A stretch of DNA of 64,000 nt from Haloplanus ruber (GTDB lineage: Archaea > Halobacteriota > Halobacteria > Halobacteriales > Haloferacaceae), in the NCBI RefSeq assembly GCF_024494725.1, contig NZ_JANHDK010000004.1:1-64000 (forward strand). The letters run 5' to 3'. A model generated the notes under the pieces. It saw only the letters and a list, made by a program, of their open reading frames with translations. It made no database searches and had not been told where the DNA came from. The translations under genes and the position numbers were made by a program. How positions within the stretch are numbered: position 1 is the stretch's first letter; each line of letters begins with the position of its first letter. Of this stretch, positions 35,847 through 57,836 are shown in pieces.

Positions 35847-35944
35847 TCGGATCGTCGATCGGCGGTTGCACAACCGCTTCACCCTGTCCATACCCTGATG
35901 AAGGCCCCCATTTAATATGTCTCGATGTCGAAGTGGCGACCATA

Positions 35945-37783
35945 ATGTGGGAACTTGATATCAATAATATCGCTGGCATCCGATCGGGCAGTACGTCCAT
36001 TATCCCCGGCCTCAACGTTGTCCAAGCGTCCAACTTCCAAGGCAAATCCAGTTTTATCGCCGCCCTTCAGACCGTCATGGGAGCCACCGGCCACTACGGT
36101 GACCATCCCCTAACCGAAGGTGCCGACACTGGTTCCGTGACACTACGTACTGACACGGATACGTACGAGGTTACTATCAACCGGGAGCGGGGGGCGAATA
36201 GCCTGAGTGGAACTCCATACCTAACTGATGAGAACGATCAGCTGTGTGCCCGGCTGTTTGCGTTCCTCGGGGAAGACAATCCCATTCGAACAGCCGTTCG
36301 AAACGGCGACGATATCACGGAATTTCTACAAGAACCACTCAATATCGAAGAGATCGATCGCCAAATCAGCGACCTCAAAGATGAACGCCGTGACGTCGAA
36401 AAAGCCCTCACACAGGCCGAACAGGCCGCTGAAAACCTTCCGTCAGCTCAAGAGAGCGTGACCCAAGTTAAGAACGAGTTGGAGGAACTTCGAGGGAAAA
36501 AAGCGGAGTTAGAAGACGCCGCCCAGGAGGACGACGGGGCCGACGACCTCAGTGATGAACTCAGTGAGCGCCGGAGCGCACTTCAAACTCACGAAGAAGC
36601 GATTCAGGCCAAAGAAGATCGGATCGAAGATCTCGAATCGAAGCTCGAAGCGGCCCAAGCCAAACTCGAGGACCTTGATGAACCACAAGAGGTCGAAACC
36701 TTGGCCGAGCTTGAGGAGAAACAAGAGCGGATTGATGTCCTCAGTGGGAAAATAGATCTCTTTGAACGACTCCATCGTGCCAACAAAGCTATTCTTGACG
36801 ACGGTGATATCAATGCTCTCACCGATGTCGAGCGGACCATCTCTGGCGATGAGATAGAGTGCTGGGTCTGTGGGAGTACGACTCCCAGAGAAGAGATGGA
36901 AGCACGGGTCGATCGTATCGACGAGCGAGTGAGCGACCTCAAAGAACAGAGACAGCAACTCACGACAGAAGTTGAGGAGCACCAACAGCGGAAGCGGGAA
37001 GCCGAGGAACAACAGCGAGAATACGAGGAAACTAAGAATAGAATTGGAAGCCTTCAGGTGAAGATTAGTGACACCAAATCAGAGCTCGATGACCGCCGTC
37101 GCAAGAAAGAAACCGTTCAAGCAGAAGTGGACGAGCTCGAACAGAAGGTCGCTGAAGCCCAACACGAACACAACGAGCAACTTGCTGAAATGAAAACCGA
37201 AATCCGAACGGCGGAACGAAAACTCGAATCCAAACAAGAGCAGCTGGACGATCTCGAGGCGAAAAAAGCCGATCTTGAGAATCTCCGCGAAGCGAAGGCA
37301 GAACTCACAGACGAGATTAAAGCGCTTCGCGAAGAAAAGACCGAGACACAGCGCGCTCTTGCGGATGAATTCGATGCTGCAATCAGCGATATCATCGACC
37401 GCTACGCGCCCGGATTCGAAAGCGCCCGCTTCGACGTCAAAACCAACAAAAACGGAGATGTCGAGAAATTTGACCTCATCATTGCCCGCGACGGCCGGGA
37501 GACGACAGTCGATGCCCTCAGCGAGGGCGAAGTAGAACTGATCGGCGTGGCCGTTGCACTGGCCGGTTACCGAGTCTATGACGTTGGCGATCGTGTCCCA
37601 CTCATCCTCATCGATGGCATCAGCCAGCTCGCTTCAGAGCACCTGCAGCAGCTCACCGACTATTTGGAGGATGCCGCGGATGTCCTTGTTACGACGGCTT
37701 ACCCCGAAGCAAGTGGATTCGATGGAGAGATGATCTCCCCAGAGGAATGGGAGATCGTGTCACATGAGAGCGCGTCTGCCTGA
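35945..37783 (+). CDS. archaea-specific SMC-related (Sph) protein
   Basis: A Rad50/SMC-like ATPase of 612 aa. The N-terminal Walker A is ASNFQGKSSF (about residue 27). Long coiled coils (about 135-285 and 310-480) flank a zinc-hook-like CWVCG (about 300). The C-terminal part has the signature LSEGEVELIGVAVALAGY and Walker B LILIDG. The glycine after Asp is typical of this group rather than the usual glutamate. Archaea-specific SMC-related proteins of haloarchaea are linked to cell shape or DNA organisation. The neighbouring rdfA genes match the known rdfA-sph arrangement. An upstream GTG at 35933 is an alternative start. Confidence 0.82.
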   Translation: MWELDINNIAGIRSGSTSIIPGLNVVQASNFQGKSSFIAALQTVMGATGHYGDHPLTEGADTGSVTLRTDTDTYEVTINRERGANSLSGTPYLTDENDQLCARLFAFLGEDNPIRTAVRNGDDITEFLQEPLNIEEIDRQISDLKDERRDVEKALTQAEQAAENLPSAQESVTQVKNELEELRGKKAELEDAAQEDDGADDLSDELSERRSALQTHEEAIQAKEDRIEDLESKLEAAQAKLEDLDEPQEVETLAELEEKQERIDVLSGKIDLFERLHRANKAILDDGDINALTDVERTISGDEIECWVCGSTTPREEMEARVDRIDERVSDLKEQRQQLTTEVEEHQQRKREAEEQQREYEETKNRIGSLQVKISDTKSELDDRRRKKETVQAEVDELEQKVAEAQHEHNEQLAEMKTEIRTAERKLESKQEQLDDLEAKKADLENLREAKAELTDEIKALREEKTETQRALADEFDAAISDIIDRYAPGFESARFDVKTNKNGDVEKFDLIIARDGRETTVDALSEGEVELIGVAVALAGYRVYDVGDRVPLILIDGISQLASEHLQQLTDYLEDAADVLVTTAYPEASGFDGEMISPEEWEIVSHESASA

Positions 37784-45160: not shown

Positions 45161-46547
45161 CCCACGCCTAAAGGGGTGGGCTTGTCAGTGGACTCCCGGT
45201 CTGGCCACCGGAGCCGGTGGCAGACGAAAACTCGCCATTCCCGTTCAGTGTCCCTGACTTCAGGGCGACCTGACAGTTCGCCCGTCCAGAACCAGACTTG
45301 AGCCAGTTCTGGACAAGATACCATGCCACGTTCCGCGCCGCATTGTAGTCCGAGTGTAACTCTTTACCACACTTCAAGCACTTGAACTCGTCACCGTTGC
45401 GGTTATCCTCGTGCGTGAACCCGCACTCGCTTTGACTGCACTGCTGACTCGTGTACTGCGGTTTCACATCGTCCACGAGAATGCCGTACTCCTCGGCCTT
45501 GTACGAAATAAACTCCTGTAACTTGTTGAACGCCCACTGCTGGAACTTCTTCCCGTCCGAGATTCGCTCACGAATCTGGGTCAGATTCTCGACGGCAATC
45601 GCGTCACAGTCGTACCGTCGAGCTTCCTGTACGATTGCGAGCGACACTCGGTGCAAGTAGTCCTCGCTCCACTCACTAAACGAGTCACCTATGCTTTGGA
45701 TCGTGAGGTGGGCAGAGCGAGTGCCTGTTTCTTGTAGGGTGCCCCGCTTGCGCTCGTACTCGTCACGCTTGTGGTTCAAGAAGTCCGCGTTGCCGTAGAA
45801 TGCACCCGTGCTGGTGACTGCCAGAGACCCGTCCACGTTGAAATCGACGCCGAGAACCGTTCCGTTCTCGACTGCCGACACGTCCGTGTCAGGTTCTTTC
45901 TGGAAGTTCACGTGCAAGTAGTACTCGCCGTCGCGCTTGTGCAGTGTCGCGCTGTTCTGTTCCCATTCGGGATTGTTCCAGTACGTTTCGAACGGCGTGT
46001 CAGTCGCGTCTTCAGGAAGAACGTATTCGGCGCTCACTCGGTCTTCTGTTGTAGAGAGCGTGCAATAGTCGTCGTAGAACGTCACCGTTCGATTGTCGTA
46101 GACGACGACACTACCCCGGAACGTTGGCTTGCTGATGGATTGGTCTTCCTCGAAGTGCAGTTCCGTGCAGGAGTCAAGTGCTTGCGCGGCGAGTGACCGG
46201 GCGGCTTGGACGTGGTTCGCGGTGAGGTCGGTCTGGCTTCGTACGTCCTCATATGTCGCGTCGTGAAGTTCGTCCTTGCTGTCGATGATGTTGGCTGGGT
46301 TGTCGCTCCAACCGTAGTTGGTGACGTATTGTGCGGAATAACGGAACTGCTCGAACGTCTTATCAAGGAGAGCTTCCTCCTCAGACTCAAGCGCGGTGAG
46401 TTTCACTTCGCAGTTCCGGTTCAGCACTTGGTTCCAACATGATGCTCGTATTATTTAAACCCATCTGCTCAGGGTGGGGAGTTAGGAAGGCTATGCCTGT
46501 GGTTTGTTGCCGTACTGTCGGCTTCCTCCCACGGCTAAAGCCGTGGG
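45161..46547 (-). mobile_element. TnpB-only IS200/IS605-type element
   Basis: Hairpins of the same kind mark both ends: 46528-46547 (CCCACGGC, loop TAAA, GCCGTGGG, a perfect stem) and 45161-45180 (CCCACGCC, TAAA, GGGGTGGG, one mismatch) overlapping the tnpB stop codon. There is no tnpA transposase gene. Exact cleavage points are a few bases beyond the hairpins. A guide RNA (omega/reRNA) would be expected from the 3' end of tnpB through the right end. Confidence 0.7.
45168..46427 (-). CDS. tnpB: TnpB RNA-guided endonuclease
   Basis: A 419-aa protein. RuvC residues: the first Asp in VLGVDFNVDGSLAV (about residue 194), the Glu in AIAVENLTQIR (about 277), and the last Asp in HSDYNAARNVAW (about 363). 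The zinc finger reads CSQSECGF and CLKCG. All catalytic residues are present, so it is probably active. TnpB proteins use a guide RNA made from the element's right end to cleave DNA beside a short motif. It starts at GTG 46427; no closer in-frame ATG begins the family N-terminus. Confidence 0.88.
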   Translation of the reverse strand: MLNRNCEVKLTALESEEEALLDKTFEQFRYSAQYVTNYGWSDNPANIIDSKDELHDATYEDVRSQTDLTANHVQAARSLAAQALDSCTELHFEEDQSISKPTFRGSVVVYDNRTVTFYDDYCTLSTTEDRVSAEYVLPEDATDTPFETYWNNPEWEQNSATLHKRDGEYYLHVNFQKEPDTDVSAVENGTVLGVDFNVDGSLAVTSTGAFYGNADFLNHKRDEYERKRGTLQETGTRSAHLTIQSIGDSFSEWSEDYLHRVSLAIVQEARRYDCDAIAVENLTQIRERISDGKKFQQWAFNKLQEFISYKAEEYGILVDDVKPQYTSQQCSQSECGFTHEDNRNGDEFKCLKCGKELHSDYNAARNVAWYLVQNWLKSGSGRANCQVALKSGTLNGNGEFSSATGSGGQTGSPLTSPPL

Positions 46548-46655: not shown

Positions 46656-47006
46656 ATGCCCGACGACCCCAAACCAGATCCCCAGACCTTCCCGCGTACG
46701 TGGTCAATCGCCAGAAGCCTTGGAGTCGGTCGCTGCGTATGCCGAGTTGCTAGCGACTGGAAACGGGCGCAACGAGCCGAGGACGTCGCCGCGAAACGCG
46801 CTGCCGATGAAATCGACGAAGACGCCATCGCCGACCTCGAGGAGCGTGGGTTCGAAACCGACCCCGAGGCCTACAGCGATGTCCCATCAAAAGCGTACAT
46901 CACGATCAAGGAGACCAAGCCCGGCTACCACTACTACTGGCAGTGGCGCGAGGGCGACAGCTGGGCGAACGAGTATATCGGGCCGGCGGATCCGAATCGT
47001 CGTTAA
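46656..47006 (+). CDS. DUF6788-like protein, N-terminal third garbled by frameshifts
   Basis: A 116-aa protein. From DWKRAQRAEDVAAKRAADEI to the end (YITIKETKPGYHYYWQWREG) it is almost the same as the paralogue at 51131. Residues 13-38, however, are unlike it (TFPRTWSIARSLG and so on). Reading the DNA in the other frames restores LPAYVVNRQ and LESVAAYAELLA. Three single-base losses, near 46683, 46714 and 46753, explain this and together restore the frame. The protein may be non-functional. Confidence 0.6.
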   Translation: MPDDPKPDPQTFPRTWSIARSLGVGRCVCRVASDWKRAQRAEDVAAKRAADEIDEDAIADLEERGFETDPEAYSDVPSKAYITIKETKPGYHYYWQWREGDSWANEYIGPADPNRR

Positions 47007-50000
47007 TCGGCAAGCGTCAGTTGCGTCCCGTCGCTTCTAGGAGGTGGCCCAATCTGAACGCTGGCTGTTTCAGCGGATTCTGTCGTCTCTATCGCGTCAA
47101 AATGAGCCCGGACGATGGCGGCTATTTGCTCACTTCGCCTCATCGATGTGCCGTGGGGCTGAGTAGGCGACGACCCATCGGCCGGACAGTCGCCAATCTC
47201 AGCCGTGATCACACCGAGGGCATCCTCGGTCGTGTCGGGAGTCCCCGGCGTCGGGACCGGCGTCCAGAACGGCGACCACCACGGGATCAGTCTGGATTCC
47301 CAGTGCCCCTCATCGTCCTGGTCGAGGAAGCCAATCGCAGTGAGAAGGTCGCGATGCCGATCGTAGGAGCGCTGAGAGACGCCAGCCTCATCGACGAGTT
47401 CCGCCGTCGAAAGCTGATCACTCGCCCCGAGAACCGTCTTGAGGAGGCGACAGGCCGACGGTGGGAGTGTCGGGGCTAGACGGTCCGCTGGGAGCTGTGC
47501 AAGGCCATGTTCCAGATCATCCACCCTAAGGGTCTCACCGTCGTGAGTGGCCGCCGCGAGGTGTAGACAGACAGTTGCGACATCGTACGGGCTTGCACCC
47601 CGATCGTCGGTCGCCAACACGGACTGAAGCACGTGGGTGAGCTCGCGGAGTTCCGAACCCGCCCGGAAGCCCTTTTGTTCGAGATGTGTCTCAAGGACGG
47701 CCCGAATGCCGGCGTAAGTATTCGCCACGTGGACCGGCACCGTAAGCCCGAACGTGTCCTCAGTGCCTTGGGCGACCGGCTCCCGGACGTCGTCGTCCGC
47801 CGCCTCAAGCGCGCCACGGAGATCGGGTTGGAGCGTGGACGCCTCAGAGCCGACGATCACCCAGTCGGCGACTAGATCGGCAAGCGGGTCGGTCGGGTCG
47901 AACTCCACGCTCATCCGGCGTTTGAGCTTTGATTCACGGTCCTCGATGAGGTTTCGATAGGCGTTGTGGGCACCATACCCAGCCGATTTCGGGATCGTGT
48001 GTCGGAAGAACTGCGTGAAGTCGTTGAGTCGGGGTGAGTCACGCCGAAGTTGGTCGACGTCCGGGAGCCGAACCGTGATCTGGAGGTCAGTGCCGGCGGC
48101 GGCAAAGAGGTGTGTCGCCGACGCCAACAGGCCGTGGGCGTCTTTGAACAACTCCGTTTTGGCTTCCGTGTCGTTCCCGTCCAGCTCATCCAGCCGGCGG
48201 AGCAATCCACTGGAGACTTCTTGAAGCCGGTCGCGGAGTCCCACCCACGTCTCTTCGGCTCCCCCAAGCCAGCCGACTTGGGAGGCGTATCGAAGCACAT
48301 CCTCGGCGGCATCATCGAAGGCTCCGTCGTATGTCTCTTGGAGGCCGTCGCCAAGCGCCCCTCTGTTCAGCGGTCGGGCCCATGCCTTGTCGCTCAGTAA
48401 GATCGCCGAGAGACGTACCAGTGTTGCCAGTGGCCCACCCCATTGGACGACCGCAACCGTGGTGTCGTCGAAACAGGAGAGGTAGCCAGGGCGTCCATCC
48501 GCAAACCGATCAATCTCGTGGTCGAGGAGTGTCACACCATGTTCGCGAACAGGTGCCGTTAACCGGGCGTGCATCCCCCAACTATCCATCACACCACGGG
48601 GATCTGGCCCACTGAGCCACTGGACGTACTCGGCTCCATCCTCAATCTCACCGGTCGCGGCCAGCCACTCCTCTGCCGTAGCGGGTGCGTCGCCGTCGCG
48701 GCCGTCGTCGCCGCCGTCGCCGTCGGGGCCGGTGGGGGGTGGGGCCCTCGCCTCGCCGGCCCGATACACTGTACTTGTGTGCTCCTGTCGGGGGGCGTTA
48801 AGACGGGAGCCAGTTTCCGTGAGCGCCGCCTGATCAGGGTGTCGGACGTCGTAGTCATCGGTGAGTAACTGGGAAAGCGCGCCGCCCAGCGGCGTCAGTG
48901 TCGCCGTGTTGAACGTCCCCGACTGGTCGATATCGACAAGCCCCGCCGTCTCGAGACGGCCAAGGTACGCGCTGATACTCCCTGAGGCAAGGGCCACATC
49001 CGGATCGTCGGCAAGCGTTCGCGCTTGGCGCGGCTCAGCGCTCCGGAGCGCCCCCACAATACGAAGATGCCCATCGCCAGGGGTGAACTCCTGAGCGGCA
49101 TCATAGGCCGCCTGGGGCGTTCCTGTCTCGGTCTCGTTGCCCGTCTTTGAGTGGGACCCGCCCTCCGGATCAGTAAGATACGACTCGGCCCACTCGGTGT
49201 GGTCCCGCAGGATCCCTTCGGCCGCTTGCGAGCAACACACCACCCGGACATCGAACGCCGTCGCGAGGTGGGCAAACATCTGCAGCGCTCGTTCCCGGGT
49301 CGCCTTTCGAGCCCCCTCCCACGAGGCGGGGTCAAGGGTGAGTGTGATCGGAGTTTCCCGGTCACTCTGTGCATGGAGTGCGAGTGGGCCGGCCACGAGC
49401 GCGTCCAGCCCGCTGTTGAGCGGATCCTTCCCGGTTCCAATGGCAGTCAGTGCATCCCGGCGGTCGGCGCACTGTGTGTCGCTCGCAGTTGTCTCAGTAT
49501 CAATGTCAGTGTCAGCGCGAGCGTGCGTCGCAAGGAGTGTGCAGTACTGTTGAACGGCGGCAATCGCCTCTTGTTGGTCGCCGTCCGTCACGGCGATCGG
49601 GACGCCGCAGGCCTCAGCGAGCGCGGCGTCGTCGGAGCCATCGTATTCGTCCGCAATCTCACGGGCGAGGGCAGTGGTTCGAGGAAGCAGCTGTATCCAC
49701 AACTCGGGGAGCCAGTCACTCACTTGTGGCCCGACACGGGTGAGCCGGACCGCGTCGACGCGGGCTTGGCCTGGACGAGCGAGCGTGACCGACGCCCCCT
49801 CAGGGTCGGGGTCGGCATCAAACACATCCAGATCGACCTCCTCGGTGACGACATCAGCAAAGCGCCCGTCCTCGATACCAAGGGCAGCCTCGGCTTCTGC
49901 TTCGAGCCATTGATCACGACGGGCGAGATGGGCTTCGGCAGCGGTTGCAAACCGTTGAGATTGTTGTTCGAGGTAGCCGTCGGCGAGTGCTTCGAACCGC

Positions 50001-50374
50001 TGGCAGTACTCGTCCAACTCCGTGTCGACGTCAGCAGCGAATAGCGCGTCTTGCCGGTCGAAATAGTCGGAAACCTGCTTCTCGAGGGCCCTGTAGTCGT
50101 CGACGGACACATACCGATCGGCTTCGCCAGCGCGATCGGCGAGGATGCGCGCCCGGAGCTCACGAGCGACGTCGCGATCATCGGCTTGAGCGCGTGGTCG
50201 GAGGCGGTCGGCCTGCCAGACAGCACTACAACTGGGACACTGGACCTGCTCGTGGGTGTCGAGGCCCTCGACGAGCCAGTGACTTTGACAGCGCCGACAG
50301 CCGACGACGGAGTACGTCGGCTCGGCGTGGGGGCGAACATCGCTCTTGGAGGTGTAGGCAGGCGTATCGTCCAT
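47003..50374 (-). CDS. large plasmid protein with N-terminal zinc domain (DUF5817-like)
   Basis: A protein of 1123 aa. The N-terminus has a zinc-ribbon-like pair (CRRCQSHWLVEG, then CPSCSAVW) of the DUF5817 type. A coiled-coil or helical region follows (about 65-170). Short winged-helix-like stretches occur in the middle (SGSISAYLGRLETAGLVDI, about 445-470) and near the C-terminus (STAELVDEAGVSQRSYDRHR, about 1010-1030). Walker motifs are not seen. Proteins of this size and start are found on haloarchaeal plasmids, but their function is not known to me. The ATG at 50374 is used because the zinc domain starts soon after. It overlaps the end of the DUF6788-like gene by four bases. Confidence 0.65.
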   Translation of the reverse strand: MDDTPAYTSKSDVRPHAEPTYSVVGCRRCQSHWLVEGLDTHEQVQCPSCSAVWQADRLRPRAQADDRDVARELRARILADRAGEADRYVSVDDYRALEKQVSDYFDRQDALFAADVDTELDEYCQRFEALADGYLEQQSQRFATAAEAHLARRDQWLEAEAEAALGIEDGRFADVVTEEVDLDVFDADPDPEGASVTLARPGQARVDAVRLTRVGPQVSDWLPELWIQLLPRTTALAREIADEYDGSDDAALAEACGVPIAVTDGDQQEAIAAVQQYCTLLATHARADTDIDTETTASDTQCADRRDALTAIGTGKDPLNSGLDALVAGPLALHAQSDRETPITLTLDPASWEGARKATRERALQMFAHLATAFDVRVVCCSQAAEGILRDHTEWAESYLTDPEGGSHSKTGNETETGTPQAAYDAAQEFTPGDGHLRIVGALRSAEPRQARTLADDPDVALASGSISAYLGRLETAGLVDIDQSGTFNTATLTPLGGALSQLLTDDYDVRHPDQAALTETGSRLNAPRQEHTSTVYRAGEARAPPPTGPDGDGGDDGRDGDAPATAEEWLAATGEIEDGAEYVQWLSGPDPRGVMDSWGMHARLTAPVREHGVTLLDHEIDRFADGRPGYLSCFDDTTVAVVQWGGPLATLVRLSAILLSDKAWARPLNRGALGDGLQETYDGAFDDAAEDVLRYASQVGWLGGAEETWVGLRDRLQEVSSGLLRRLDELDGNDTEAKTELFKDAHGLLASATHLFAAAGTDLQITVRLPDVDQLRRDSPRLNDFTQFFRHTIPKSAGYGAHNAYRNLIEDRESKLKRRMSVEFDPTDPLADLVADWVIVGSEASTLQPDLRGALEAADDDVREPVAQGTEDTFGLTVPVHVANTYAGIRAVLETHLEQKGFRAGSELRELTHVLQSVLATDDRGASPYDVATVCLHLAAATHDGETLRVDDLEHGLAQLPADRLAPTLPPSACRLLKTVLGASDQLSTAELVDEAGVSQRSYDRHRDLLTAIGFLDQDDEGHWESRLIPWWSPFWTPVPTPGTPDTTEDALGVITAEIGDCPADGSSPTQPHGTSMRRSEQIAAIVRAHFDAIETTESAETASVQIGPPPRSDGTQLTLAD

Positions 50375-51083
50375 GCAGGGTGGACGTCGACCTTGCGCGT
50401 TGGCGGATCGACGAGCCGCCGTGCCCACGGACACTCTCGGTGCCCCTCAACCCGTCAAGAGACCGAGTTGGCGCTATGCGTCGCTCGCGATGAGGGGCAA
50501 ACATTTTGTCCGTGGGATGCGGAAGAACAAGCACACGGTGTAAGGTGTGCCCTGCGGTGCAATGGGCCGCGGTGGTGGGCCGAAGTGGGATTCGGCCCAC
50601 CCCTCTTCCACAACGCTGTGAGTGGGTACGTTAGCTCATTCCTTTCATAGATCCTCACTTCTGTCTTAACTTAAAAGTTGGCTCGGTGAAACAGTTTCTA
50701 GACCATGACAGATGGCAGCAGGACGGGCAGCTCATCACGACCCTGTTTGTGCTTCGGACTCGTTGTCTTGTCTCCTTCTGCAGGAATAGTCGGACATGGG
50801 CCCGACCGTCTTGAACGCCGTCAAACCGACACCAGTGAGCAACTATACACTCTTAAAAAAGTAGGGGGTGAGTGCCGTAGATTCCAGTTTTCACGGGGGG
50901 TGGGTGACTTCACTTCGGTAGAATATGAGAGGGCAATTTATTCTATCAAAAAAGGAATTGTAGGGCGTCTACAGTTTTCATGGGGTGGGGGTCAATAGGA
51001 GATCCCACGGGGCAAATTTGAAACAAACTTTGGGTGTTTCAAATAGTGGTTGTATTTAAATCAGCCACTGCTTCTCTCAGCAA
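50375..51083. other. region with two ORB-like direct repeats
   Basis: This gap of about 710 bp has no convincing gene. Two related segments occur 87 bp apart: CAGTTTTCACGGGGGGTGGG at 50885 and CAGTTTTCATGGGGTGGGGG at 50972. Each joins an AT-rich half to a G-run, as haloarchaeal origin recognition boxes do. They may be weak Orc1/Cdc6 sites or a separate set of protein sites. Confidence 0.4.
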
Positions 51084-51723: not shown

Positions 51724-52095
51724 GACCCCCTCCCCCCGTTATCGAGTTGTAACGGCTCGTGGAACTGCGACGAAACGAATAAGCAACGAACCGGTAGAGT
51801 AGACGATATCGCCACGGAAAGGCAGTAACACGGGTATCACGTCTGTTTTTTGGTCGCATTCAGTAGGCAGTAACTCTATTAATGACACTATTATTATATT
51901 TTGTAGAGATAGTACTACGGACTAACTTGTAGAGGTAGGACATAAAACCACCTGATTCTAGAGAAGACTTCGGGGATCACTGTTCTCAGGCCATATGCAC
52001 CGATATTTTTGCATTTGAGCTCCCTTTCGTCGATTTCTGGCTGAGCGGTCCCCCTCCCTTATGATTTTACAACTCGACAACGGGGGGAGGGGGTC
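51724..52095. other. replication origin (inverted ORB pair around an AT-rich unwinding region)
   Basis: A 29-bp box at 51724-51752 is the reverse complement of 52067-52095 with one mismatch. The forward box reads TTACAACTCGACAACGGGGG, then a second G-run ending in GTC. Between them, about 51840-51960 is AT-rich (for example TATTAATGACACTATTATTA) and is a candidate unwinding element. The orc1/cdc6 gene starts 281 bases downstream. Inverted origin recognition boxes flanking AT-rich DNA next to an orc gene are the standard haloarchaeal origin layout. Confidence 0.85.
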
Positions 52096-52376: not shown

Positions 52377-53870
52377 ATGACCGACAATGGCACCGAGGGC
52401 CGAGGTGAGGGGGACTCGCCTGAAACGGTGACTAACGAGAACACTGATCCAAGGTCAGCTCAGGATACTCTTCCACATTCTGACGAATCTGAAGATACTA
52501 CAGGAGAAGATCTGGACGACGATCTCTCAACCGGCCAGGGGGAGGGGGCCGAGGATGCCTCTTCTTCGTCATCGAGCGATCAAATCTCAATTCGCGAACG
52601 GTTGCAGTCACAAGGTAGTAACAGTGTCTTCGCCGACAAGGATCTCGTCCGCCCGGAAACGATCATCGACGAGGATAGAATCGTCGGTCGCGATGAACAA
52701 CTGGAGCGGGTCATCGACAATCTGCGACCTGCGTTGGATGGCTCAGGACTCCCGAACATGCTCCTAAACGGTCCCTCGGGCACGGGTAAATCACTAATCG
52801 TCAATGCTGTCTGTAAGCAAATAATTGACCTCTGTGAAAGCCAGAACATCCGGTTCGGCGTCGTGAGTCTAAATTGTGAGCGTCCGAATTCGCTTGACCA
52901 AGCCGTCTATCGACTTGTGAGAACCGTTGCCGACGACGTCGGCGTGGAGCCTGGCGTCCCTCAGACTGGCGTTTCAACCGATCAAAAATTCGAGCGATTA
53001 TACGAACTCGTCGATAGCTACTACGACTCTGTCATATTCATCCTCGATGAGATTGATCTGCTTGTCGGACCATATGACGACAACGCATTCTCCTCGCTAC
53101 TATATCAGCTCTCGCGGGCTGAATCCCTCGGTAATATCCAGGGGAGCGTATCGGTGACGGCTCTGACGAATTATACTCATTTCATGGAGGATCTTAACAG
53201 CAGAGCCGAAAGCTCGTTCAACCCAGATGACATTTTCTTTGACGATTACGACGCGAACCAGCTCCGGGCCATCCTTGAGAATCGTCGGGATGCGTTCAAG
53301 GAAGGTGCGCTTCAGGGTGACGTGATTCCATTAGTCGCGGCGTTCGGCTCCCAGACCCATGGGGACGCACGAAAGGCGATCGACTTGTTCCGGTGGTCTG
53401 GTGAGATCGCCGAACGGGAAGGTTCTGATGTGGTTGCTGAGGACCATGTCCGAACCGCACAGGAAAAATACGATGAAAATCGGACTCTCAGACATGTTAA
53501 CGGCCTTGCGACACAGAAGAAGTTAGCACTCTATGCGACTGCTGCTGTTCAGCACTTTGCGGACGATCCTCCCGAAAAAATACCTGCCGGCGTCGGGTAC
53601 AACGTCTACCAATTCATCGCCCAATCGATCGATAGTGAGGACCACAATCGGGAAACCTACGTCAACAAGGTTACTGAACAAAAGACGTACGGCATTCTGG
53701 ATTACGAGCGCCGTGGCCGGGGTCGTGGTCGGGGTGTGCATATGTTCTTCTCACTGAACGAGGATCCAGAAGCGCTCATTAATACGGTCGAGGCCGACAG
53801 TCGAATCGGTAGTATTGAGCCGGAAATGATCCAGTCTGTGGTGAATGCCCAACTCCGGAAATTCGAGTAG
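52377..53870 (+). CDS. Orc1/Cdc6 replication initiator
   Basis: A 497-aa AAA+ protein. An acidic disordered N-terminus (1-70) is followed by Walker A GPSGTGKSLIV (about residue 133), Walker B IFILDEIDLLVG (about 222), the sensor-1 region VTALTNYTHFME and a C-terminal winged helix (about 400-495, RTLRHVNGLATQKKLALYA to ERRGRGRGRGVHMFF). It binds origin recognition boxes and loads the MCM helicase. It is encoded beside its own boxes, so it is the probable initiator of this replicon. Confidence 0.93.
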   Translation: MTDNGTEGRGEGDSPETVTNENTDPRSAQDTLPHSDESEDTTGEDLDDDLSTGQGEGAEDASSSSSSDQISIRERLQSQGSNSVFADKDLVRPETIIDEDRIVGRDEQLERVIDNLRPALDGSGLPNMLLNGPSGTGKSLIVNAVCKQIIDLCESQNIRFGVVSLNCERPNSLDQAVYRLVRTVADDVGVEPGVPQTGVSTDQKFERLYELVDSYYDSVIFILDEIDLLVGPYDDNAFSSLLYQLSRAESLGNIQGSVSVTALTNYTHFMEDLNSRAESSFNPDDIFFDDYDANQLRAILENRRDAFKEGALQGDVIPLVAAFGSQTHGDARKAIDLFRWSGEIAEREGSDVVAEDHVRTAQEKYDENRTLRHVNGLATQKKLALYATAAVQHFADDPPEKIPAGVGYNVYQFIAQSIDSEDHNRETYVNKVTEQKTYGILDYERRGRGRGRGVHMFFSLNEDPEALINTVEADSRIGSIEPEMIQSVVNAQLRKFE

Positions 53871-53923: not shown

Positions 53924-54219
53924 TTACTACTCGACAACGGGGGGTGTGACCGTACAGGTGGTCCTCTGGGAGGAAATCGAGACGCTCAGTTACAAGTCGA
54001 CAACGGGGGGTGTGGTCGTTCCGGTGATCCTCTGGGAGGAAATCAAGACGCTCAGTTACAAGTCGACAACGGGGGGTATTGTCCTTCTGGTAGTACTCTG
54101 GGAGATAGGTAGGACGTCCAGTTACAAGTCGACAACGGGGGGTATTGTCCTTCTGGTAGTACTCTGGGAGATAGGTAGGACGTCCAGTTACAAGTCGACA
54201 ACGGGGAGTGGTCGGAACC
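53924..54219 (+). repeat. five 66-bp direct repeats carrying ORB cores
   Basis: The core CGACAACGGGG is found at 53932, 53998, 54064, 54130 and 54196, exactly 66 bp apart. Each is preceded by GTTACAAGT (TTACTACT in the first). Between the cores the sequence is also repeated (TACTCTGGGAG, AGGACGTCCA in units 3 and 4; CTCTGGGAGGAAATC in 1 and 2). It lies directly after orc1/cdc6. The boxes all point the same way, in contrast to the inverted pair at the origin, so this may titrate the initiator or control copy number. The open frame across it on the minus strand is an artefact of the 66-bp (22-codon) period. Confidence 0.88.
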
Positions 54220-54228
54220 ATCTGAGTC

Positions 54229-56145
54229 TCATACGACTTTGTATTGGTCGGTTGAGGGGCTATATACGTCTCCTTTCCTGCGGAGCTGCTCGATGTGGTC
54301 CAGTAGCCTTTCTTTGCTTATACCCTTGCTCCGTGCCCGGTCGACAATGGCATCAATCGGTGCGCCGGCCTCTCCAGTATATTCCTTATCCACTATCTCA
54401 ATCACGTCTCTCACTGATTCTACTACTTCTTCATCATGCTCGCCGCCGTCTTCAGTCGCGTCTTCGCCTTCTCGTCCAGCTCCCGTTTCAACCACATCAT
54501 GGGTGAAATCTCCCTCGACAGGATCAATACCGATATCCTGTAGACAAGATCGGACAACCTTGATTGCACGCTCTGCGTCCTCACGATCGACAGTGTCAGA
54601 GAGCCGCAGTCGAGCGCTTGCCTCTGCCAAGCGAACCATCGCTTCCAATTTCCGACCGGTAACGGGCACCGGGGCGTCCTCGTCAGCGCTTTTCGCACGG
54701 AGCTCAACATAGTAGTCGCGGATCGGTTCTTTCCCCTCATCGGTCAAGGTCGGATAGTAAGTCTCTCTCGCGTACGAAATGTACTCCCGGAGGAACTCGG
54801 GTTCGACAATGGGGGCAGCAGTTCGGGCGGCCTCCTCAACTTCAGACTGAGTGGGTTCGGACTCCACCGTGTTCTCGCGGCGGGTGTCGCGCTCTCTCTC
54901 GCGATTCGTTTCGAGAATCCGTTCGGCAGCCTCAATATCTTCCTCCGGATCTGGTCGATCTACGACTGTGAATACCAGATCGAACTGCGATACTGTAGTC
55001 GGATCAATATCGATCTGCTCCGCAATCGGTTCATACTGATCGAACCGGCCATACTTCGGCTTCGAGGTAGCAATTAGCCCTGTTTGACCCTGGTTCGCGC
55101 CAGCTTTGTCGGAGGGTATCTCCGCGGTGAATGCCCTCCGCAGTTGGTCGAGCTCGTTCTCGTTGGCTTTGCCGAACTGCGTAACAACAGCGTGGGACGC
55201 ACGTGTTAGCGTATCAACAGAGTACTCAGATAGCCTTCGAGACGAAGAGTCGTGTGGACTCTTTTGTGTCGTCAACAGTCCTTTGCCAGATGGCCCACCG
55301 GAGAGGTGAACTCCCGAAGGAGCCACCTGTGCTGCATACTCTGCGATATCCGTAGTCAACGTCCCCGAATCATGGACTAGCGAAATGTGTATCGCACCCC
55401 GAATAGACCGGCCGTTCTCCCGTGGTTTGTGTATCCCACCCACAAGCGAGAGCAGCAGCCCGAATTTCTCCATCTCATGTCCATATACCGATGGAGCAAT
55501 TGATTCGATTAGGCTATCGTATAGTGGCCCGAACGTGCTCTGCTGAATTGGTTCCTGATCGTTGCTTCGCTTCTCATTAACAAACTCCTCAATCCTTTCG
55601 CGTGACTCTGAGGGTACTTCAGGACTCTCTTCGTCCGAGGGACTTCCAGCTGTATCCTCGGTATACACCGACTGTCGCATGAGATCCTCAATGTGGGCGC
55701 TTGACGGGAGATCGGCAAGCGAGACTGACTCCACGAACTGCTCGTCATCTTCATCCGTCGCTTGGTAGAGACGATACTGCTCCCCATTAGTCAGAAGCCC
55801 CCATTCGGCCCCGAACAACCGCATATACCGCCGGATCTGCGCTCCGCTGTTTGTAATATTCCGGCCAATCTGTTTGGCCTCGACGACAGCGTGGACTCCG
55901 TCTGGACCGAACAGGGCATAGTCTGCCTGATCGTCGAATCCTTCCTCACCCGAATATTCCAGCAACACCTCACTATTGTCGTAGACGCGCCATCCGAGAG
56001 TTCTAATGAACGGCGTCACAATCTTTGCTTTCGTATTCGTTTCGTCGAGGCTTTGCCCCGTCGCAACAACCCCCTTCGTCACAGAGACAAATTCCGAGAG
56101 CGTGCCATATGCGCCTCCCCTCGGCCCTTCGGTCATATTTTCCAC
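54229..56145 (-). CDS. HsdR_N-type nuclease domain fused to an ATPase-dead MCM AAA+/winged-helix region
   Basis: A 638-aa protein. Residues 20-130 look like a type I restriction HsdR_N domain, with a PD-(D/E)xK core: Asp75 in QADYALFG and Glu89-Ala-Lys91 in VVEAKQIG. Residues 200-545 align with the MCM AAA+ module (SIAPSVYGHEMEKFGLLLSL; PKYGRFDQYEPIAEQID; KLEAMVRLAEASARLRL), and 573-638 with the MCM winged helix. The ATPase residues are changed: Walker A GDPGTGKS is HDSGTLTT (Lys264 to Thr), Walker B IDE is VTQ (322-323), sensor-1 Asn is Lys362, and the arginine-finger SRFD is SQFD (Gln387). The MCM N-terminal OB domain is absent. It may act as an inactive helicase-like subunit that targets a nuclease to replication complexes; that is inference. 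Confidence 0.8.
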   Translation of the reverse strand: MENMTEGPRGGAYGTLSEFVSVTKGVVATGQSLDETNTKAKIVTPFIRTLGWRVYDNSEVLLEYSGEEGFDDQADYALFGPDGVHAVVEAKQIGRNITNSGAQIRRYMRLFGAEWGLLTNGEQYRLYQATDEDDEQFVESVSLADLPSSAHIEDLMRQSVYTEDTAGSPSDEESPEVPSESRERIEEFVNEKRSNDQEPIQQSTFGPLYDSLIESIAPSVYGHEMEKFGLLLSLVGGIHKPRENGRSIRGAIHISLVHDSGTLTTDIAEYAAQVAPSGVHLSGGPSGKGLLTTQKSPHDSSSRRLSEYSVDTLTRASHAVVTQFGKANENELDQLRRAFTAEIPSDKAGANQGQTGLIATSKPKYGRFDQYEPIAEQIDIDPTTVSQFDLVFTVVDRPDPEEDIEAAERILETNRERERDTRRENTVESEPTQSEVEEAARTAAPIVEPEFLREYISYARETYYPTLTDEGKEPIRDYYVELRAKSADEDAPVPVTGRKLEAMVRLAEASARLRLSDTVDREDAERAIKVVRSCLQDIGIDPVEGDFTHDVVETGAGREGEDATEDGGEHDEEVVESVRDVIEIVDKEYTGEAGAPIDAIVDRARSKGISKERLLDHIEQLRRKGDVYSPSTDQYKVV

Positions 56146-56187: not shown

Positions 56188-56691
56188 CTAATCGATGCCA
56201 TAACCCACGATGTGGGCGGCGTCAAGGAGGGAGAGGTCGTCGTTTGCACCGGCAATCAGCACGATCTCGTAGACATCCGTCTTGGGCACTTCCCCTTCGA
56301 AGGCGTCTTCCAGCTTCCGCTTTGCATCCCGGATATCGTTCATCGTCTCGTTCTGGATCGTCACCGTGAGGTCTACGTCACGGTATTCTTTGACGTTTGA
56401 TCGGCGTTGCTTGACTGGGAGATTGTTCATATCGAACTCCTCCGGGAGCGTGTGGTGGGTAGCATTCGTCCGCAAATCGCCCGCTTCTCCTCCGGCAGGG
56501 AGTGAATTATCTTGGTCTGATGGACTACGCCGTGCGTTCTCCGGAGCTTGGTCACCGGTCTCGTGTCGCTGACCGCGACGGGTGGCGTCCTGATCTTGGC
56601 CTTGGCTTTGGCTTTGAGTCGGTTCGGGTTCATCGTCACCAAGTGCGTCTGTCGAGCCCTCGTCGAAATCATAGCGGCTATCTTTCCCCAT
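56188..56691 (-). CDS. ParA partner, ribbon-helix-helix-like C-terminus
   Basis: A 167-aa protein overlapping the parA stop by one base (TGATG). The first 90 residues are disordered and Gln/Asp-rich (EPTQSQSQGQDQDATRRG). The C-terminus (VDLTVTIQNETMNDIRDAKR, then KLEDAFEGEVPKTDVYEIVL) looks like a strand-helix-helix DNA-binding domain. Small centromere-binding proteins encoded after parA have this plan, and the flexible tail often stimulates ParA. The DNA site is not known; the 42-bp iterons and the 66-bp repeats are candidates. Confidence 0.62.
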   Translation of the reverse strand: MGKDSRYDFDEGSTDALGDDEPEPTQSQSQGQDQDATRRGQRHETGDQAPENARRSPSDQDNSLPAGGEAGDLRTNATHHTLPEEFDMNNLPVKQRRSNVKEYRDVDLTVTIQNETMNDIRDAKRKLEDAFEGEVPKTDVYEIVLIAGANDDLSLLDAAHIVGYGID

Positions 56692-57632
56692 CAGACATTC
56701 ACCTCCGTTGTGGGATCAGCATCCTCAAGCAGCTTTTCCGGCGTCGCATCTCCCATCTCCTTGTCCTTCACTTCATCCCACCGTTCGATCGCCTCATCGT
56801 AACTGTAATCTCCAACCATCCACCGCCCAATCACCTTGTATGCTAACGGCACGTGTTCTTCGTAGGCCCGAAGCTCCCGCGTGTCCTCTGACTCGATGAA
56901 GCTGAACAGATCCATCCGCTTGTCCCACGTGTAGCGTAGTAGCGAGTGTTCTGGGATCGAGAATGGGCTGATCGGGATCCCTTCGTTTTCCATCTGTTCT
57001 CGGTACTCTTCGAAGATTTTCGCGTTTCCAACTCGGCTTGGCACTGTCCCCCTGATCGTCACGTCGACGTTCATGCCGCGGAACCCTTTCTCGATTGCCT
57101 CCAGCGTGTCTTCCAGCTCTTGTTGTGATGCTTTCCCCTTGGGGGTGAGTTCAATCGGGACCATGATGTTTTGCGCGGCAACGAGCGCATTGTCGACGAG
57201 TTTCGTGTGGGTCGCCTGTGTGTCGATGATTACGACATCGTAGTCGCTGCTCAAGTCCTCAATTGCGTCTCGAACTACGAAGAATTGATCAGCTGCCATT
57301 CGCGAAGAATCTGCTACTGCCGATTCGAAGTTCCCCATGTCCTCGTGGCCGGGCACGAGATCAAAATGGTCTGTCTCGACGATGATCTCCTCGAGTCCCT
57401 CCTCTCCGAACAAGACATCCATGATATCTGGCTCAACGACGTGACCTGCCTCTTCGTCATCGTACGCGAGATCACCATACCCACAGTAATGGGTTAGGGC
57501 TCCCCGCTGTGGATCCAAGTCGACCGCGAGGACATCGTATCCATCTCGCCCAATTGCTGCTGCAGTTTGCATCGCATTTGTTGTCTTTCCTGGTCCTCCG
57601 CTGGCCGACCACCAAGTGAACCCAATTGCCAT
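56691..57632 (-). CDS. ParA-type partition ATPase lacking the signature lysine
   Basis: A 313-aa deviant-Walker ATPase. Walker A reads WWSASGGPGKTTNAMQTAAA: the family's signature Lys (KGGxGKT) is a Ser here, while the second Lys is present. Other motifs are VLAVDLDPQRGAL and VVIIDTQATHTKLVD. The C-terminus is helical (DYSYDEAIERWDEVKDKEMG). It is predicted to drive plasmid segregation with the downstream gene. An in-frame ATG at 57659 is an alternative start. It is preceded by an AT-rich leader shared with a divergent HEPN gene. Confidence 0.82.
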   Translation of the reverse strand: MAIGFTWWSASGGPGKTTNAMQTAAAIGRDGYDVLAVDLDPQRGALTHYCGYGDLAYDDEEAGHVVEPDIMDVLFGEEGLEEIIVETDHFDLVPGHEDMGNFESAVADSSRMAADQFFVVRDAIEDLSSDYDVVIIDTQATHTKLVDNALVAAQNIMVPIELTPKGKASQQELEDTLEAIEKGFRGMNVDVTIRGTVPSRVGNAKIFEEYREQMENEGIPISPFSIPEHSLLRYTWDKRMDLFSFIESEDTRELRAYEEHVPLAYKVIGRWMVGDYSYDEAIERWDEVKDKEMGDATPEKLLEDADPTTEVNV

Positions 57633-57836
57633 ATGCGAAATAATCACGTCATTTGGCATAAATCTTTGTCAGACAGACGGACAACCATACAGTTGATTGG
57701 CCAGTTGGTTTTCTGGTTGGCTTATTAGTTTGCTGGCTAAAATACTTTTTAGAAATTTATTGAGCAAACCAGCCTCTACGCCCTGAAAACAAGGGATAAC
57801 TGGGGTATCATAGCTCCGCGATTCTTGCTCGGGGCT

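Follow-up and report, generated by a model that had tools for sequence, protein, structure and literature searches.

Organization of the locus

The window (the 64,000-nucleotide stretch of Haloplanus ruber DNA analysed here) is part of a 360-kb contig. It carries a gene whose predicted product joins a nuclease domain to the C-terminal domains of an MCM helicase. The features relevant to this gene are as follows.

51724–51752 and 52067–52095: two ORB-like elements in inverted orientation, 314 nt apart, upstream of orc1/cdc6
52377–53870, forward strand: Orc1/Cdc6 initiator (TIGR02928), convergent with the fusion gene
53924–54213, forward strand: five ORB-like direct repeats, TTACAAGTCGACAACGGGG, 26 nt each with 66-nt spacing, just past the stop codon of the fusion gene
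54229–56145, reverse strand: gene of the nuclease/dead-MCM fusion (638 aa), following the two genes of the parA pair
54232–54417, reverse strand: MCM winged helix of the fusion (residues 577–638), 73% identical to the host MCM and about 38% to MCMs of other genera
54544–54798, reverse strand: MCM AAA lid (residues 450–534), with the sensor-2 Arg retained and 75% identity to the host MCM
54907–55524, reverse strand: MCM AAA+ P-loop domain (residues 208–413), catalytic residues lost
55666–56106, reverse strand: HsdR_N-like PD-(D/E)XK nuclease domain (residues 14–160), with E35, D75, E89 and K91 intact
56188–56691, reverse strand: 167-aa ParA partner without a family match, 42 nt upstream of the fusion
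56691–57659, reverse strand: ParA-type partition ATPase, first gene of an apparent parA – 167 aa – fusion operon

The fusion frame is open over all 638 codons and starts with GTG; the true start may be the ATG at codon 4. The three genes share a strand and are separated by 0 and 42 nt, so that together they resemble a partition operon with the fusion in third place. The most similar parA – 167 aa pairs, found on plasmids of Haloarcula pelagica, Halalkalicoccus jeotgali and Halomicrococcus, have no third gene of this kind beside them, and we therefore consider the fusion gene to be accessory. The inverted ORB-like pair at 51724–52095 is likely to be the plasmid origin, as in haloarchaeal origins. 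With the direct repeats starting right after the fusion stop codon and orc1/cdc6 nearby, the original prediction was correct in placing the gene beside the origin.

No catalogued defence protein or complete defence system was identified at this locus beyond a weak REase_I similarity (E = 3e-4), the neighbours being genes of replication and partition. Neither the fusion protein nor its neighbours contain an HsdR SF2 motor, HsdM or HsdS.

Three further genes of the window are noted here. An SMC-like protein with weak similarity to LmuB/PbeC is encoded at 35933–37783 and is followed by a 1245-aa protein with no PADLOC match; the two are a possible Lamassu-like pair. A TnpB/Cas12f-like protein of an IS605-type element lies at 45168–46427. 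About 4 kb from the fusion gene, at 47003–50434, is a gene for a 1143-aa protein with an N-terminal DUF5817 and otherwise no family match.

Domain structure of the fusion protein

Pfam identifies the MCM P-loop domain (PF00493) at residues 208–413 with E = 3e-32, MCM_lid (PF17855) at 450–534 with E = 5e-27, and the archaeal MCM winged helix (PF21120, MCM_WH_arc) at 577–636 with E = 3e-4, the last of these under its curated cut-off. The NCBIfam model for archaeal MCM (NF040949) covers residues 195–638 (E = 2e-80), and the solved chains that best match the protein are archaeal MCMs (6e-63). The similarity to MCM is thus far beyond chance. HSDR_N_2 and HSDR_N match at residues 68–138 with E = 5e-6 and 1e-5, both over their cut-offs. 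The N-tier of MCM (A domain, OB fold and zinc ribbon) is absent. These matches confirm the predicted order of an HsdR_N-like nuclease followed by MCM AAA+ domain, lid and winged helix. They bear out the fusion of nuclease to MCM that had been proposed, the replacement of the N-terminal OB fold by an HsdR_N-like domain, and the retention of the framework phrases and winged helix of MCM. We regard the assignment of the MCM fold as strong and that of the nuclease fold as moderate.

Structure predictions using AlphaFold were of limited quality. The prediction for the window protein with nine partial relatives had an overall pLDDT of 49, too low to be used, and fold claims for this protein consequently rest on sequence homology. 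For the relative from Salinigranum described below, the pLDDT was 62, with values of 35–58 in the nuclease region and low values also in the winged helix; the N-tier alone was predicted confidently, and Foldseek matched it to the N-terminal domains of archaeal MCMs (1ltl_A, E = 2e-21).

The host genome contains a single canonical MCM (G000:C2:165800-168733; L002/L003), which is used below for residue numbering and comparison. Directly behind its Walker A lysine, this MCM has an intein (GDPGTGK/SQ). In other genomes, many related MCM genes are open frames of 1,000–2,400 codons, as expected if they hold several inteins.

A dead motor with a conserved lid and winged helix

In host MCM numbering, the window protein has lost the Walker A lysine (K334 to T), both Walker B acids (D394 to T and E395 to Q), the sensor-1 asparagine (N438 to K) and the arginine finger (R463 to Q). 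It keeps the sensor-2 arginine (R574), a lid arginine (R581) and the pre-sensor-1 lysine (K420). The original statement that every ATPase residue is lost is therefore too strong: it holds for Walker A, Walker B, sensor-1 and the arginine finger, but not for the three residues retained. Compared with the MCM helicases, the protein has the AAA+ homology and the C-terminal winged helix and lacks the Walker A/B, sensor-1 and arginine finger residues as well as the N-tier.

Fractional identity to the host MCM is 0.23–0.25 in the P-loop segment, 0.73 in the segment from PKYGRF to SRF, 0.75 in the lid and 0.73 in the winged helix. This is the inverse of the usual pattern: between genuine haloarchaeal MCMs, the P-loop segment is the best-conserved part (0.85–1.0 across genera) and the winged helix the least conserved (0.31–0.44). 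In the window protein it is the P-loop that is divergent, and the lid and winged helix that are close to the host MCM. In a tree, its lid and winged helix nest inside the MCMs of its own genus.

For lid, winged helix and PKYGRF segment together, comparison with the host MCM gave dN = 0.17 and dS of about 2.5, a dN/dS of about 0.07, with synonymous sites near saturation. These values indicate that the retained MCM parts have long been under purifying selection. Recent gene conversion with the host mcm gene was considered as a cause of the high identity and is unlikely: the codon is shared at fewer than half of the identical positions, which speaks against recent copying, and dS is near saturation. 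The segment identities and the low dN/dS thus support the proposal that selection maintains an MCM-derived part that is inactive and is joined to an intact nuclease.

The nuclease domain and its fusions to the MCM N-tier

A search across the haloarchaeal class using the nuclease domain, together with further searches, turned up numerous unfused HsdR_N proteins, about 380 aa long, and eight fusions of the same nuclease to the MCM N-tier.

G002, G104, G128 and G168 (genome labels): nuclease + MCM N-tier
G339: MAG QH_8_64_26
G403: Haloglomus halophilum plasmid, WP_254824912.1
G509: Salinigranum salinum
Haloplanus rubicundus: plasmid pCBA1112-02, WP_114606886.1

Those that were scanned with Pfam have MCM_N/MCM_OB plus HSDR_N. 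All eight are missing the AAA+ motor, and G128, G339, G403 and G509 have in addition a terminal MCM winged helix. The fusions of G168 (L012), G002 (L005) and G104 (L007) end directly after the nuclease and have no winged helix. The four zinc-ribbon cysteines are kept in all seven fusions examined. The N-tier of the fusions stops at host residue 249–264, and the AAA+ homology of the window protein begins at about 248–262. Since the two positions coincide, the nuclease is joined at the same domain boundary from either side. In the search for homologues that had been called for, this nuclease was joined to the MCM N-tier in eight fusions and to a dead AAA+ domain only in the window protein. We propose to group these proteins as a class of MCM–nuclease chimeras; the window protein has a nuclease of the fusion clade, a joint at the boundary between N-tier and motor, and no working motor.

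At least eight of the approximately 515 haloarchaeal genomes searched carry a fusion, a number that is a lower bound because strict cut-offs were used in some searches. A canonical MCM is retained in all seven fusion genomes examined and in the genome of the window. Scans of the genome and viral contigs with the window protein as a single query found no relatives, and a scan with a tighter alignment (A2) found two fusions in the genome contigs and none in the viral contigs. Long frames containing HsdR_N in G152, G110, G247, G160 and G339:C29 were considered as fusions and rejected, as they have no MCM part.

Residues E35, D75, E89 and K91 do not vary in the first alignment of the nuclease domain (A1, six members), so that Asp75, Glu89 and Lys91 are intact, as had been noted, and Glu35 with them. 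The ExK motif is kept in eight of the nine fusions. The exception is the G128 protein (L044:5953-7539; MCM_N–nuclease–winged helix), where the motif reads ExE through replacement of Lys by Glu, and whose nuclease is possibly inactive. In a tree with 51 unfused domains, the nine fused nuclease domains form one clade (branch support 100/99), and none of 500 shuffles was as clustered. The branching order within this clade does not follow host families.

Repeated capture of the resident MCM

The history of the MCM part is different. In each of the seven fusions that could be tested, the N-tier has its closest match in the canonical MCM of the same genome. The same result was obtained in a tree, where all seven N-tiers group with their own-genome MCM, six of them as strict sisters at 96/91 or better; the seventh, G104, groups with its own-genome MCM together with a viral MCM. 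Forcing the fusion N-tiers into one clade cost 181 log-likelihood units (p-AU = 4.7e-47). The match of the N-tiers to their own genomes and the rejection of a single clade together imply that one mobile nuclease clade has repeatedly been joined to resident MCM modules. Counting the seven N-tier cases and the C-terminal part of the window protein, which derives from its own genus, there have been about eight separate joinings. Older gene conversion (concerted evolution) may have led to the same closeness to the resident MCM; whether by capture or by old conversion, the MCM part stays matched to its host. For the five fusions with finite dS, the dN/dS of the N-tier against the resident MCM is about 0.1–0.3. 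This repeated derivation of the MCM part from the host is the most striking fact to emerge from the analysis, and goes beyond what the original prediction, made from the sequence of the window, could see.

The viral contigs L138 and L139 encode viral MCMs with intact Walker motifs. The N-tier of the L138 protein groups with the canonical MCM of G104, which suggests that viruses may capture host MCMs too.

An independent fusion of a nuclease to a dead MCM

A further protein, in G044, combines an Mrr-type PD-(D/E)XK nuclease with the AAA+ domain, lid and winged helix of MCM, in that order. It has lost Walker A, the Walker B Glu, sensor-1 and the arginine finger, and also one lid Arg. Its winged helix is 53–54% identical to the MCM of its own genome, and 32–33% identical to the window protein and to the MCM of the window's host. 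A common origin of the lid and winged helix of the two proteins is disfavoured (p-AU = 0.01). The combination of a nuclease with a dead MCM has therefore probably arisen on two or more occasions. When the G044 Mrr domain was searched across the class, no second Mrr–MCM fusion was found.

Genomic context of the relatives

On plasmid pCBA1112-02 of Haloplanus rubicundus (L132:2084-14366), the fusion lies in an operon of DUF499/HmaC, a hypothetical protein, a DUF1156/HmaB methylase, the MCM_N/nuclease fusion and a PLD/SNF2 helicase. We regard this operon as a candidate Hma-like defence system with an unlisted component. It resembles Hma and the DUF499/DUF1156/PLD-helicase candidate defence operons, with one MCM_N–nuclease fusion inserted between methylase and helicase genes, but an MCM–nuclease is not among the listed components of Hma; no PADLOC model matches the fusion protein. 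The Haloglomus fusion is near genes for a Piwi protein, a Dna2-like helicase-nuclease and a BrxH-like helicase. A CBASS-type cyclase (a defence-type nucleotidyltransferase) is encoded 1.4 kb from the G104 fusion, a few genes upstream. The G509 fusion is near a CARF protein and the G002 fusion near an HEC-06/Orf5 protein. None of the ten genes beside canonical MCMs gave a defence match. The fusions of G339, G128 and G044 lie among ordinary-looking, housekeeping-like genes, and those of G509, G128, G002 and G044 are carried, at a distance from origins, by contigs that are large or appear chromosomal. The defence neighbours were chosen by eye from the contexts, so that the association with defence is suggestive and does not amount to a test. 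The neighbours of several relatives thus provide circumstantial backing for a role in defence or in competition between elements.

Possible functions

We propose that these proteins form a scattered haloarchaeal class of chimeric nucleases carrying resident MCM modules, in which the MCM part would dock the nuclease at the replication machinery so that rival DNA is cut; we see this proposal as evenly poised. The motor is either absent, in the layout MCM N-tier – nuclease – winged helix, or present in dead form, in the layout nuclease – AAA+ – lid – winged helix seen in the window, and what remains of MCM would serve as an address. The winged helix and N-tier could dock the nuclease on MCM, Orc1/Cdc6 or fork DNA with no unwinding, and the nuclease would cut replicating DNA, most probably that of competing plasmids or viruses relying on the host replication machinery or imitating it. 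The MCM N-tier functions in ring formation and DNA binding. In Sulfolobus, Orc1-1 bound to ORB elements is contacted by the winged helix of MCM (PMC12141716). An MCM is also encoded by many haloarchaeal viruses and plasmids, and a target to compete with therefore exists. For the window protein, inter-plasmid competition would be the likeliest use, given that its gene is an accessory third gene of a plasmid partition operon beside origin repeats. Several observations argue against this proposal. The winged helix is missing in three fusions, G339, G128 and G044 have housekeeping-like surroundings, the nearest neighbours of the window gene are replication and partition genes, the G128 protein has Glu for the Lys of ExK, and the layout of this nuclease with a dead AAA+ domain is seen only in the window. 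We suggest more tentatively that the mobile nuclease clade may steal the helicase docking modules of each new host, kill or lose the motor, and destroy replicating foreign DNA at origins or forks, as a form of replisome-addressed immunity or competition.

The position of the window gene could also be explained by self-regulation of the plasmid. The protein might act as a decoy for Orc1/Cdc6 at the ORB repeats, in competition with MCM, and so control copy number, or might resolve forks or multimers before ParA-driven partition, or both. The apparent operon with its short gaps, the ORB repeats at the 3′ end of the gene, the convergent orc1/cdc6 and a winged helix well conserved towards the host MCM are what would be expected of such a protein. 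The gene is however accessory, being absent beside related parA – 167 aa pairs; moreover, four of the proteins (G509, G128, G002 and G044) are encoded away from origins, and that of Haloplanus rubicundus inside a candidate defence operon. We consider self-regulation rather unlikely.

A host-beneficial role in fork repair is somewhat more doubtful. Here the MCM modules would find stalled forks for trimming or cleavage by the nuclease, like GAN/RecJ or Hef, which would fit the host matching of the MCM modules in every testable case and the occurrence of several members among ordinary chromosomal genes. A gene that looks SRAP/HMCES-like by eye (an abasic-site protein; MCGRNSLF start) adjoins the G002 fusion at L038:8172-8861, and would also fit. 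Fork repair is ill-suited to the patchy occurrence (about 8 of 515 genomes), to the horizontal spread of the nuclease and to plasmid carriage, and the nuclease family is otherwise accessory.

It is improbable that the protein is mainly a poison of MCM hexamers, inserting into host or viral rings via its lid and AAA surfaces and blocking them, with the nuclease secondary. The window protein does keep the trans-acting sensor-2 Arg and the lid Arg, and MCMs of viruses and plasmids would provide a target, but most relatives have the nuclease and no AAA+ domain, and G044 has lost one lid Arg. Finally, it is very improbable that the protein is the remnant of a duplicated MCM that shed its motor and N-tier and became fused by chance. 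The exact layout is found as a single copy, its GC3 is like that of neighbouring plasmid genes and its P-loop region evolves fast, but decay of a normal MCM is rejected by the long open frame, by the selection on lid and winged helix at saturated synonymous sites, by the invariant nuclease residues, and by the relatives. None of these has a working motor with the Walker A and B residues that would mark this copy as merely decayed (eight have no AAA+ domain, and G044 lost the same motifs independently).

Relation to known systems and significance

The C-terminal 440 residues of the window protein are homologous to archaeal MCM helicases of the haloarchaeal core group and closest to MCMs of the same genus; the protein differs from these in having no N-tier, in the loss of catalytic motor residues and in the added nuclease. 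A survey of haloarchaeal MCMs reports that no core protein and no full-length outlier lacks the catalytic motifs, and describes four MCM_N-only outliers of 312–315 aa, none of which has a nuclease (PMC3972481). The unfused haloarchaeal HsdR_N proteins, annotated as type I restriction enzyme HsdR N-terminal domain-containing proteins, belong to the same PD-(D/E)XK family (35–42% identity) but have a different C-terminal region, no MCM parts and a place on the opposite side of the 100/99 branch. Type I HsdR likewise has the N-terminal nuclease domain, but the fusion does not have its SF2 motor, and no HsdM or HsdS gene lies beside it. The archaeal GAN/RecJ–GINS–MCM complex is another association of a nuclease with MCM. 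GAN/RecJ is a DHH nuclease and a separate subunit that is bound through GINS and not fused to MCM. Background on this complex is given in PMC3307487.

The open literature yielded no description of an MCM–nuclease fusion, in agreement with the initial view that no such system had been described. Both the chimera class and the repeated capture of host MCM thus appear to be undescribed there.

Purifying selection on dead MCM parts, combined with derivation from the resident MCM in all seven testable cases, would constitute an unusual host-tracking capture of domains. If the MCM part is an address, these proteins would be natural nucleases targeted to the replisome or to origins, and could show where on the haloarchaeal MCM Orc1/Cdc6 and partner subunits bind. 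The replication machinery would then join the things that are sensed by archaeal defence or in competition between plasmids.
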